In this document: positions 10,916 through 13,305 of the stretch, one piece after another
Position numbering within the stretch: the first letter of the stretch is position 1
Layout: each line of letters opens with the position of its first letter
Source: a virus
Reading direction: 5' to 3' (one strand)
DNA length: 42,312 nt
Virus record (IMG/VR): IMGVR_UViG_3300039448_000056
Span: 1-42,312 of that record
Program-made: the position numbers and the translations under genes
The notes under the pieces: model-generated
What the model was told of the DNA's origin: nothing
What the model saw: the letters and a program-made list of their open reading frames with translations, nothing else
Database searches by the model: none

Positions 10916-13305
10916 TGCTGAATTTTACCGAGCCCAAAGAGATCAACCTTCGCCCCTATCAAGCCGACGCTATCGAGAACCTGCGCGCGGGCATCCGTGG
11001 CGGTAAGCGGCGGCTTCTGCTCTGCGCGGGCACTGGGGCAGGCAAGACCCTGACCGCTGCGCACCTGCTGCACGAGGCCGCGCGCAAGGGCAGCTACGCG
11101 CTGTTCATCGTCGACCGGGTGGCGCTGGTCGACCAGACAAGCTCGGTGTTCGATGAATACGGCATCCAGCATGGCATCGTGCAGGGCGTCAATGAGCGCT
11201 GGATGCCCAATGAAAACGTGCAGGTCTGCTCTGCGCAGACGTTGGCGAAGCGCTCGCTCCCCCGCGACCCCGCGCTGATCGTCGTCGACGAAGCCCATTG
11301 TTTTGCTCCAGGCACGAAAGTCTCGACGCCGCATGGCGACGTTAACATCGAGAGCCTGACAGTTGGCGACCAAGTAATGAACGCTTTTGGCGCAGGGACC
11401 GTCACTAACGTTTTTAAGCACTCCACCCAAAAAGACATTGTGAGGGTAATCTTCGATGACGGAACCGAGATCGAATGCACCGCTGACCATCGATTCTTTA
11501 CCGGCAACTCATGGGTGCAGGCCCGGCTCTTGGATGGAGAGGGCGCGGTCAGCATCGAAGGTATGCCCGACCTGTGGGGATACCTTTCGACCGAGGATCA
11601 GCCGAACCGCGAAGGGGAGCTGGTTGGCGGAGCACGAGGCGTATTGGCAGAGGCGAGTGTGTTGCTCGCAGAGTTGCTCGAAGAAGCTGAAGAACCCGAT
11701 GCACCAGAGGGCCTCGCGAGAGAAAATGGCCAAGAGCTTGCGGGAGATGGGCTTTGGTCCATCAGTCCAGGGCGGCAACGGGAGGGGCTTAACCAAGCCA
11801 CAGGCAGCTCTGCTGGGGGTGCTGGGGGATCGATGGATCGCAGAACTTGTAGTGCCCACCGGGCAGCGCAAAGCTGGTGGTCTTCCTTCGCACTACAAGA
11901 TCGACCTCGCACTTCCCGAGGAAATGATTGCCCTGGAAGTGGATGGGGGGTCGCACAACTCGGAAAGGATCAAGGAAAGGGACGCGAGGAAGGACGAATT
12001 TCTTTCCTCAAAAGGGTGGTCAGTGTTCAGAGTGTCGAACGAGAAGGCCTTAGCGATGTGTTCAACATCGAAGTCAGCGGACACCCTTCTTACTTCGCTA
12101 ATGGGGTTTTAGTTCACAATTGTCAGTATAAGGCGACCCTCGACTACATGGCGCGCCATCCGCAGGCCGTGAAGATCGGGCTGACCGCCACCCCGTTTAC
12201 AAAGGGCATGGGCGACCACTGGGATGATGTGGTCAATGTGATCCCGACGCGCCGCCTGATCGAAGACGGGTTCCTGATCGAGCCCAAGATCTACATCGCG
12301 AAATCCCCCGACGACGCCGATCTTGGCCTCAACAGCTATGGCGAATTTTCGGATAGCAGCGCCTCGACCGCAGGCATCCAGATCGTCGGCGACGTGGTGC
12401 AGGAGTGGATGACCAAGACGACCGAGACCTTCGGCGGGCCGGTCAAGACCATCGTATTCTCGCCGACCGTGGATCATGGGCGCGAGCTGTGCGCCGCCTT
12501 CTCCGCCGCAGGGTTCAATTTCCAGCAGATCAGCTATCTCGACCGCAGCGACGAAGAGCGCGCGGAAAAGATCGCCGAATTCCGCCGCCCCGACAGCATC
12601 ATCGACGGTCTGGTGTCCTGCGGGGTGCTGACCAAGGGGTTCGATGTGCCAGACGTCAAGTGCGGCATCTCCTGCAAGCCCTATCGCAAGAGCCTGTCGA
12701 GCCACATGCAGGAGATCGGTCGCGTCATGCGCTCGCATGCCGACAAGGATGCTGCGCTCTGGCTGGATCACTCCGGCAATATCGAGCGCTTCGGCATCGA
12801 CATGTTCGACGTCTGGGATCATGGCGTCGGTGATCTGGATCACTCGACCAAGCGCGACAGCAAGCCCCGAGAGCGCAATGAGCAGGTGCGCGAAAAGGTG
12901 GTGTGCCCCGAATGCAGTGGCGCGCTGCGCGGCAACCTCTGCATGTCCTGCGGGTGGGAGCGCCCCGCGCGGTCGGGCGTCGTCAATGTCGCGGGCGAGA
13001 TGGTCGAGTTCAAGCCGAGCGATTTCAAGATGCAGCCCCGCGCCGGTCTGCGGGCTGAGTGCCTGTCCGATCCTCGCAAGGTCTGGGACGCCGCTCTCGA
13101 CTACACCATGGCGCACACGTCCAAGGGTGAGCAGCATGCGCGCAAATGGGCCTATGGCGTCTTTCGGGGCGTGTATCCCAGCGACAAGCTGCCGTTTGGC
13201 TGGTTCGACGCCGCGCCCGCCGCGATGGTCGATCCCTCCGCCTCCGCACTGGTCGAGCGCGAGATCAAGCGCTTCCGCAAGGGCAGCAAGCGGGGGGCAG
13301 CATGA
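10915..13305 (+). CDS. SF2 DEAH helicase interrupted by an intein
   Basis: 796-aa precursor. The exteins form a 522-aa superfamily 2 helicase: Q-like RPYQADAIENLR, Walker A GTGAGKT (residues about 38-44), DEAH, LTATP motif III, an SPTVDHGRELC segment and motif VI QEIGRVMR, then a C-terminal zinc ribbon (CPEC...CMSCGW). Residues 129-402 are an intein lying between His of DEAH and a Cys. Only spliced protein would have an intact Walker B. It probably unwinds DNA in phage replication together with the TOPRIM primase that follows (ATGA overlap). Confidence 0.95.
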   Translation: MLNFTEPKEINLRPYQADAIENLRAGIRGGKRRLLLCAGTGAGKTLTAAHLLHEAARKGSYALFIVDRVALVDQTSSVFDEYGIQHGIVQGVNERWMPNENVQVCSAQTLAKRSLPRDPALIVVDEAHCFAPGTKVSTPHGDVNIESLTVGDQVMNAFGAGTVTNVFKHSTQKDIVRVIFDDGTEIECTADHRFFTGNSWVQARLLDGEGAVSIEGMPDLWGYLSTEDQPNREGELVGGARGVLAEASVLLAELLEEAEEPDAPEGLARENGQELAGDGLWSISPGRQREGLNQATGSSAGGAGGSMDRRTCSAHRAAQSWWSSFALQDRPRTSRGNDCPGSGWGVAQLGKDQGKGREEGRISFLKRVVSVQSVEREGLSDVFNIEVSGHPSYFANGVLVHNCQYKATLDYMARHPQAVKIGLTATPFTKGMGDHWDDVVNVIPTRRLIEDGFLIEPKIYIAKSPDDADLGLNSYGEFSDSSASTAGIQIVGDVVQEWMTKTTETFGGPVKTIVFSPTVDHGRELCAAFSAAGFNFQQISYLDRSDEERAEKIAEFRRPDSIIDGLVSCGVLTKGFDVPDVKCGISCKPYRKSLSSHMQEIGRVMRSHADKDAALWLDHSGNIERFGIDMFDVWDHGVGDLDHSTKRDSKPRERNEQVREKVVCPECSGALRGNLCMSCGWERPARSGVVNVAGEMVEFKPSDFKMQPRAGLRAECLSDPRKVWDAALDYTMAHTSKGEQHARKWAYGVFRGVYPSDKLPFGWFDAAPAAMVDPSASALVEREIKRFRKGSKRGAA
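11299..12120 (+). mobile_element. Intein (274 aa) in the helicase DEAH box
   Basis: Begins with Cys1 (CFAPGTKVSTPHGDV, block A), has block B (GTEIECTADHRFFT with the TxxH), block F (VFNIEVSGHPSYFANG) and ends VLVHN followed by extein Cys. All residues needed for class 1 splicing are present. No LAGLIDADG or HNH nuclease lies in frame. Instead, the frame-0 linker (about residues 95-235 of the intein) is low-complexity text that is a shadow of the endonuclease gene in another frame. The first part is visibly richer in A/T than the flanking helicase, as expected of an acquired element. Confidence 0.95.
11456..12112 (+). CDS. Vsr/EDxHD-like homing endonuclease, nested out of frame in the intein
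   Basis: 218 aa, read in the +1 frame relative to the helicase. A zinc ribbon (VCPTCGDTFRP then RVCCSQSCSKKLKN) precedes GFGPSVQGGNGRGLTKPQ and the catalytic region: WIAELVVPTG, HYKIDLAL, MIALEVDGGSHNSERIKERD, KDEFLSSKGWSVFRVSN. This is the order of free-standing phage EDxHD (I-Bth0305I/Vsr-like) homing nucleases, which cut intein-free alleles and spread the element. GAGGG nine bases upstream supports the ATG at 11456; 11534 (MERARSASK) fits the usual domain start better. It ends eight bases before the intein does, with its own TAG. Confidence 0.85.
   Translation: MTEPRSNAPLTIDSLPATHGCRPGSWMERARSASKVCPTCGDTFRPRISRTAKGSWLAEHEAYWQRRVCCSQSCSKKLKNPMHQRASREKMAKSLREMGFGPSVQGGNGRGLTKPQAALLGVLGDRWIAELVVPTGQRKAGGLPSHYKIDLALPEEMIALEVDGGSHNSERIKERDARKDEFLSSKGWSVFRVSNEKALAMCSTSKSADTLLTSLMGF

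Follow-up and report, generated by a model that had tools for sequence, protein, structure and literature searches.

An intein in a phage helicase gene with a DUF559/Vsr-like nuclease frame nested in its overlapping +1 frame

Results

The helicase gene, its intein and the nested frame

The sequence analysed in this work, hereafter the window, is the IMG/VR virus record IMGVR_UViG_3300039448_000056 at its full length of 42,312 bases. It contains a phage helicase gene of superfamily 2 (SF2) whose open reading frame (ORF) runs through an intein, and inside the intein a second ORF, encoding a putative DUF559/Vsr-like nuclease, occupies the overlapping +1 frame (Table 1). The helicase ORF matches Pfam ResIII (E = 6.9e-21) and Helicase_C (E = 8.9e-10), and its exteins are 69% identical to the helicase of Paracoccus phage Shpa, itself without an intein. 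The boundaries of the intein were read directly off the sequence, the alignment with the intein-free Shpa gene placing it after DEAH and before Cys+1 (12121–12123).

By its motifs the intein is of the class 1 type, with C1, TADH (the TxxH of block B) and a VHN/C junction, and with PF14890, TIGR01445 and TIGR01443 above their cut-offs; C1, H64, H273 and the terminal N274 (codon 12118–12120) were invariant among 36 sequences. In the structural model, residues 1–90 (mean predicted local distance difference test, pLDDT, of 91–98 per ten residues) and residues 241–274 (above 90) are confidently predicted and point to a Hint fold, the closest solved intein being gp41-1 both by sequence (E = 9.6e-23) and by Foldseek comparison of the fold (E = 3.9e-8). 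Both halves lie in one open frame, so this intein is not a split one; nor is the nuclease an in-frame endonuclease domain, since it is encoded in the +1 frame and the middle of the intein frame is predicted unfolded.

The nuclease matches Pfam DUF559 at 33.1 bits (cut-off 20.6), a match found at E ≤ 0.01 in 51/51 members of the nuclease family, and its profile retrieved 3r3p (EDxHD, I-Bth0305I) with E = 0.002; comparison with PHROGs gave no informative name. Among 51 sequences, C37, C40 and C74 were invariant and C70 was present in at least 90%. The core residues D150, E161, D163, H167 and D176 are probably catalytic, judging from the fold and the DUF559 match. For the AlphaFold model (mean pLDDT 89.5), the top Foldseek match was the catalytic domain of I-Bth0305I (E = 6e-3), with NGO0050 at rank 4 and Vsr at rank 6, and VIA-align gave Z scores of 9.4, 9.1 and 8.9 for NGO0050, I-Bth0305I and Vsr, respectively.

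Table 1. Coordinates of the helicase, intein and nuclease features in the window.
Feature	Position	Strand	Remarks
SF2 (ResIII/DEAD-type) phage helicase ORF	10915–13305	+	796 codons; stays open through the intein
Intein, C1 to terminal Asn	11299–12120	+	274 codons; Pfam Intein_splicing, TIGR01445 and TIGR01443 above cut-off
N-terminal splicing half of the intein, blocks A and B, TADH motif	11299–11568	+	Residues 1–90
Shine-Dalgarno-like GAGG within intein codons	11442–11445	+	10 nt ahead of the nested ATG at 11456
TAA stop in the nuclease frame	11447–11449	+	Just upstream of the nuclease ATG; read from the sequence
Nested nuclease ORF, DUF559/Vsr-like	11456–12112	+	218 aa; +1 frame; exact start presumed
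CxxC...CxxxC segment of the nuclease	11564–11677	+	Likely zinc-binding
Intein-frame stretch predicted unfolded	11701–11994	+	Residues 135–232, pLDDT below 50 in the model; nuclease-coding in the other frame
Nuclease core residues D150, E161-x-D163-G-x-x-H167, D176	11903–11983	+	Probably catalytic
C-terminal overlap, nuclease GWSVFRVSN... and intein block F/G strands	12014–12112	+	Nuclease-dominant to about 12051, intein-dominant after

Recurrence of the arrangement

Relatives were collected with nuclease queries, two of whose scans kept the best 80 of 139 and the best 80 of 508, and with one intein query (best 80 of 130 kept). The final census comprised 256 loci with distinct nuclease DNA, the window included and near-identical copies counted separately; exact duplicates were set apart, as were L008, L098, L124 and L204 (intein-free Shpa, window copies and a FoX3 copy). 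Helicase and intein share the frame that lies one base behind the nuclease, and this frame was stop-free across the nuclease in 251/256 loci; in 243 of these both intein halves fell within the same ORF. As for the other open loci, seven miss one intein half at a contig end. In the last, L245, the intein frame is open across the nuclease but breaks close to the end of the intein, leaving the C-block in a different frame, which might be either an error or an incipient split.

All 111 intein-frame stops were confined to the five non-open loci; among the 55,971 codons examined, the third frame had 4,164 stops. In two of the five (L065 and L303) the nuclease gene abuts or overlaps the start of an uninterrupted SF2 helicase gene, with no intein. 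L263 has the nuclease at the start of the helicase gene, and its helicase frame is broken where the DE of the DExH box ends; this break coincides with the usual intein site and could be an assembly error or a scar. L123 is a freestanding nuclease in Massilia. The fifth, L334 (2403–4340), is a fractured SF2 helicase in which the N half of the intein, the nuclease and the C half of the intein are three ORFs with both joints overlapping, the two intein halves being in separate ORFs; it may be an intermediate towards split inteins.

The +1 arrangement was also found in the named isolate phages CP-T1, MR14 and phi673 and in bacterial genomes. Dual-coded inteins were seen in bacterial ORFs of more than 2000 codons, namely L116 (Azospirillum canadense), L113 (Nitrospirales) and L122 (Anaerolineae), and the element is thus not confined to short phage helicases. 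Among the distinct classified inteins retrieved with the intein query, 71/71 carry a DUF559 nuclease in +1, a sample that favours dual-coded members because the query included the overlapped middle. At the seven named-phage loci retrieved with the nuclease, it is unannotated within one long coding sequence, described as helicase, P-loop protein, coil-containing or hypothetical protein.

Coding in two frames at both ends of the nuclease

An initial annotation of the window had pointed to dual coding where the C-terminal blocks of nuclease and intein overlap. The two readings on which it relied are correct, and their coordinates right within a few bases: from about 12016 the helicase/intein frame (frame 1) gives VVSVQSVEREGLSDVFNIEVSGHPSYFANGVLVHN, followed by the C of the extein, and at 12014–12052 the +1 frame (ORF 11456–12112) gives GWSVFRVSNEKAL. 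The nuclease stop (TAG, 12110–12112) does end eight bases ahead of the last intein base (12120), a spacing found in 56/109 loci, window counted. A second two-frame segment lies at the opposite, N-terminal end of the nuclease (11456–11563). The finding is wider than first noted: the whole nuclease is nested, the block B end is double-coding as well, and the family is widespread.

Conservation beyond chance was assessed by resampling in 109 loci (L065, L123 and exact duplicates left out; median C overlap 97 nt), with 100 synonymous versions each, keeping the amino acids of one frame fixed and scoring the other by hidden Markov model (HMM). With nuclease amino acids fixed, the intein C-block scored above all 100 resamplings in 107/109 loci; with intein amino acids fixed, the nuclease did so in 109/109. 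The same held for loci outside the HMM training set (intein 93/95, nuclease 95/95). The load is shared unevenly along the C overlap. In its first 36 nt (about 12016–12051) the nuclease dominates, with an excess of 21.8 bits against 5.5 bits for the intein, whose signal there exceeded all resamplings in 53/109 loci and fell in the top 5% in 91/109 (at 3% in the window). In the remainder, up to the stop, the intein dominates (32.7 bits against 4.6 bits), the nuclease signal being above all resamplings in 59/109 loci and in the top 5% in 84/109. The suggestion that both frames are family-like at once stands, but each part of the overlap is dominated by one protein.

The conservation profile was first made with 11 sequences, where the filter was too strict, and redone with 36. 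The intein-frame excess was large (at least 1.8) at 11456–11536 and 12050–12109; between those ends it reached up to 0.75, with 0.68 at 12023–12049 and values near zero at several places within 11699–11941. The nuclease-frame excess extended nearly throughout the ORF and was gone in the last codons: the last 8 nuclease codons (12086–12109) showed no excess in the 11-sequence profile (p = 0.12), and the 36-sequence profile gave a small excess at 12077–12103 and none at 12104–12109.

The ratio of non-synonymous to synonymous substitution rates (dN/dS), which the initial annotation had proposed as a check, was estimated per frame from 14 independent pairs with bootstrap intervals, as dNN/dSN for the nuclease and dNN/dNS for the intein; the SS class was not estimable in the N and C overlaps of these pairs, and omegas based on it were not used there. 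Both frames were constrained in the N overlap (nuclease 0.37, 0.22–0.67; intein 0.23, 0.15–0.31) and in the C overlap (nuclease 0.45, 0.26–0.65; intein 0.36, 0.17–0.64), and only the nuclease was constrained in the middle (nuclease 0.19, 0.16–0.22; intein 0.99, 0.80–1.20). When all 34 pairs were used, which are not independent, the intein frame gave 0.77 (0.64–0.89) in the middle, other values being similar. As a control, a fictitious +1 frame in the C-extein (13/14 pairs) gave 0.79 (0.72–0.85), with the helicase frame at 0.11, which indicates that the estimator is biased below 1; the nuclease intervals nonetheless lie under the control.

Avoidance of stops in the intein frame

Stop avoidance was examined in the 111 distinct loci of an earlier set, after L008, L009, L098 and exact duplicates had been left out. 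The script classed 108 as open; the other three were L043, owing only to a contig edge, and L065 and L123, which are truly non-open. The open loci comprise 23,815 codon pairs, with 1,537 stops in the third frame and 0 in the intein frame. An intein-frame stop would arise wherever a two-fold, pyrimidine-ending codon of the nuclease ended in T before AAN, AGN or GAN; in this context such codons ended in T in 0/845 cases, compared with 1,919/3,651 elsewhere. Under synonymous resampling about 1,062 stops were expected and 0 observed, and for the window alone the probability of a stop-free frame was 5e-4, the floor of the resampling.

Start of the nuclease

The nested ATG overlaps a [DN]G motif of the intein, and the start test was limited to the 56 loci with this motif (53 were without it), a broader start table being too heterogeneous across subfamilies. 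The D/N codon ended in T in 42/56 loci; elsewhere in the same ORFs, D/N codons before G did so in 130/265 cases. A Shine-Dalgarno (SD)-like tetramer preceded the nested ATG in 23/42 loci, against 26/409 control positions in the same register. In the subfamily of the window, 26/36 members have a stop in the nuclease frame at most three codons upstream of the start; the open stretch ahead of the start is longer than three codons in the other 10/36 and, measured upstream of the profile match, in 54/108 open loci. Conserved internal ATGs with SD-like sites, together with the upstream stops, favour separate initiation at the internal ATG over frameshifting.

Insertion sites and movement between helicases

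The usual insertion point of the intein is immediately behind the DE in the DExH box, ahead of Cys or, in some loci, Ser. In the window (DEAH/C, 11287–11301), as in L113 and L122, it sits two codons downstream of this DE/C site; the shift is of three codons in L107 and L121 and of four in L118, each time before Cys, and in L196 and L202 the intein is inserted at other sites.

For 18 hand-picked pairs (17 of the 34 close dN/dS pairs plus L073/L074) the intein was compared with its flanks, taken as the best local matches, some of them short. The intein DNA with its nested gene was more alike than both flanking exteins in 14/18 pairs, for instance 97.6% against 69–71% in L014/L017, 96% against 78% in L004/L005 and 93% against 72–76% in L056/L079, where flank matches were short. 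These comparisons suggest that the intein is often transferred between diverged helicases as one unit with its nested gene.

A different pairing was found in Xanthomonas phage FoX3 (L009, 2435–3232), where an intein at the equivalent DE/C site contains a LAGLIDADG_2 ORF (E = 1e-21) in its +2 frame and the intein frame is stop-free (P = 0.002 under resampling). This may represent an independent origin of dual coding. The case rests on one genome, because searches for relatives of the LAGLIDADG ORF gave FoX3 itself, a FoX3 copy and two distant phage matches. To judge from tblastn coverage, FoX1, FoX2, FoX5, Murka and M29 are apparently without the intein, and together with FoX3 they could form a natural plus/minus allele set.

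Discussion

A probable mobile intein with a separately encoded nuclease

We consider it highly probable that the window carries a dual-coded mobile intein that has its homing endonuclease encoded in the overlapping +1 frame and made as a separate protein. The anatomy of the locus, the conservation of two frames, the avoidance of stops and the frequent spread as a block carry this reading, whereas splicing, nuclease translation, cleavage and homing are inferred. One frame would yield a helicase-intein-helicase precursor, out of which the predicted Hint domain would excise itself and restore the helicase. The +1 frame nested in the intein would be translated from an internal ATG of its own into a separate nuclease of about 218 aa. 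The most likely targets of this nuclease are helicase alleles without the intein, which it would cut close to the codons of the DExH box. Repair of the cut allele would then copy in the intein together with its nested gene, which is homing. Under such a scheme the middle of the intein frame would only need to be stop-free and a tolerable linker, and both ends would serve splicing and nuclease together.

Several results weigh against this interpretation. The Foldseek match to I-Bth0305I is weak, and in VIA-align a mitoribosomal chain (9i05_Xr) ties with the nucleases at Z 9.6. The SD-like site of the window is modest in sequence and spacing, many loci of other subfamilies are without a clear SD or start, starts differ, and the [DN]G motif used in the start test is lacking in nearly half of the loci (53/109). 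Among the 18 pairs, the intein is not above both flanks in four (L011/L012, L099/L100, L037/L042 and L047/L052). The dN/dS control is 0.79 instead of 1. Finally, an intein-frame excess of +0.74 in mid-intein (11672–11698) matches the +0.68 at 12023–12049, and since the resampling ignores shared descent the smaller excesses were not taken as selection.

Seen in a single sequence, a nuclease between intein halves looks like an in-frame domain, and the locus could be read as an ordinary intein split by a sequencing or assembly frameshift. We give this next to no probability and rejected it on the recurrence of the same +1 relation in 251/256 distinct loci, named isolate phages and bacterial genomes included. 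Two compensating errors would be needed every time, and the coding regions of nuclease and intein share DNA at both ends, which leaves no single frame that could hold both. The initial annotation had likewise argued against a simple frameshift error, an argument strengthened by the presence of the arrangement in many assemblies. It is also very improbable that one frame is functional and the other a decaying remnant: the middle of the intein frame does evolve as if unconstrained (0.99) and the last nuclease codons are hardly conserved, but both frames are constrained at both overlapped ends and no intein-frame stop occurs in 251 open loci.

Two further explanations accept the overlap and differ in how the nuclease is made or used. 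Programmed ribosomal frameshifting out of the intein frame would produce a fusion of the intein N half with the nuclease; the position of the nuclease, +1 relative to a gene that is translated, would suit it, SD-like sites near the nuclease start can also stimulate frameshifting, and a part of the loci leaves the frame open upstream of the start. We set it aside as quite unlikely, mainly for the stops just upstream of the nested ATG in 26/36 subfamily members, which leave almost no room for a shift; moreover, the ATG is maintained by synonymous codon choice, and no shared slippery sequence was noticed by eye, no dedicated scan having been made. Alternatively, the nuclease may no longer serve homing and have taken another role, such as repair, recombination or attack on rival phages, as Vsr-like folds have many functions (Vsr, TnsA and mitoribosomal chains are among the fold matches). 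This appears unlikely for a nuclease that lies within an intein and often travels along with it, and whose freestanding relatives L065, L263 and L303 adjoin an SF2 helicase gene, as expected if they were aimed at that gene; DUF559 genes have been placed in the EDxHD homing family (PMC9403480). A separately initiated homing endonuclease thus remains our preferred interpretation.

We also propose, tentatively and with the odds somewhat against it, that dual-coded inteins are a general, independently evolved class with a separately translated overprinted endonuclease, and that fractured genes and naturally split inteins arise from it. FoX3, with an unrelated nuclease in another frame, suggests more than one origin of dual coding. 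A single stop in the unconstrained middle would be enough to divide the intein while the nuclease stays intact, as in L334, and in this way such a class would give rise to split inteins.

The dual-coded arrangement looks like a real, overlooked way for inteins to carry their spreading enzyme. One DNA apparently makes two proteins, so that the amount of nuclease would no longer be tied to splicing, and the overlapping frame hides the nuclease from annotation. The family also provides a large natural set of overlapping genes, with a near-neutral spacer middle in one frame and both ends constrained, that suits the testing of methods for selection in overlaps. It also suggests a testable way in which contiguous inteins could turn into split ones.

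Comparison with known systems

Inteins are usually described as carrying the endonuclease as an in-frame domain, and we know of no description of one with the endonuclease in an overlapping frame, many intein papers lying outside our search. An open-access literature search found no intein with an out-of-frame endonuclease described, a weak absence as most subscription journals were outside it. As in canonical homing-endonuclease inteins, the window has class 1-type splicing blocks, Cys+1 and an endonuclease between the splicing halves; unlike in these, where the enzyme is a domain of the spliced-out intein, here it is a separate product of the overlapping +1 frame. Group I introns with endonuclease ORFs, such as that of I-Bth0305I (EDxHD), the best Foldseek match, share a freestanding endonuclease, but here it is carried by an element that splices as a protein, whose frame is itself coding and has to remain open.

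The closest published case found is the ShiLan insertion, which encodes an out-of-frame HNH nuclease and in which its authors detected no splicing domain of either an intein or an intron (PMC11855218). A second ShiLan-type out-of-frame HNH is reported for phage Applejack (PMC12613952). With ShiLan the window shares a nuclease ORF in the other frame of an insertion open in the host-gene frame, a phage setting and a patchy distribution; unlike ShiLan, the window has a complete intein in the host frame and a nuclease of the DUF559/Vsr-like kind. In Thermosynechococcus, new inteins are reported next to a DUF559 gene that was placed in the EDxHD homing family, and the section on inteins makes no mention of overlapping frames (PMC9403480).

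Fractured genes resemble the window in having a nuclease between intein halves, and L334 shows that very layout with its ends still overlapping. In 2009 Dassa and colleagues reportedly described fractured genes in which a freestanding endonuclease lies between the two halves of a split intein, and the gp41-1 intein presumably comes from such a gene. Unlike in fractured genes, the intein is contiguous in the window and in most of its relatives (243/256), because the overlapped frame has no stops.

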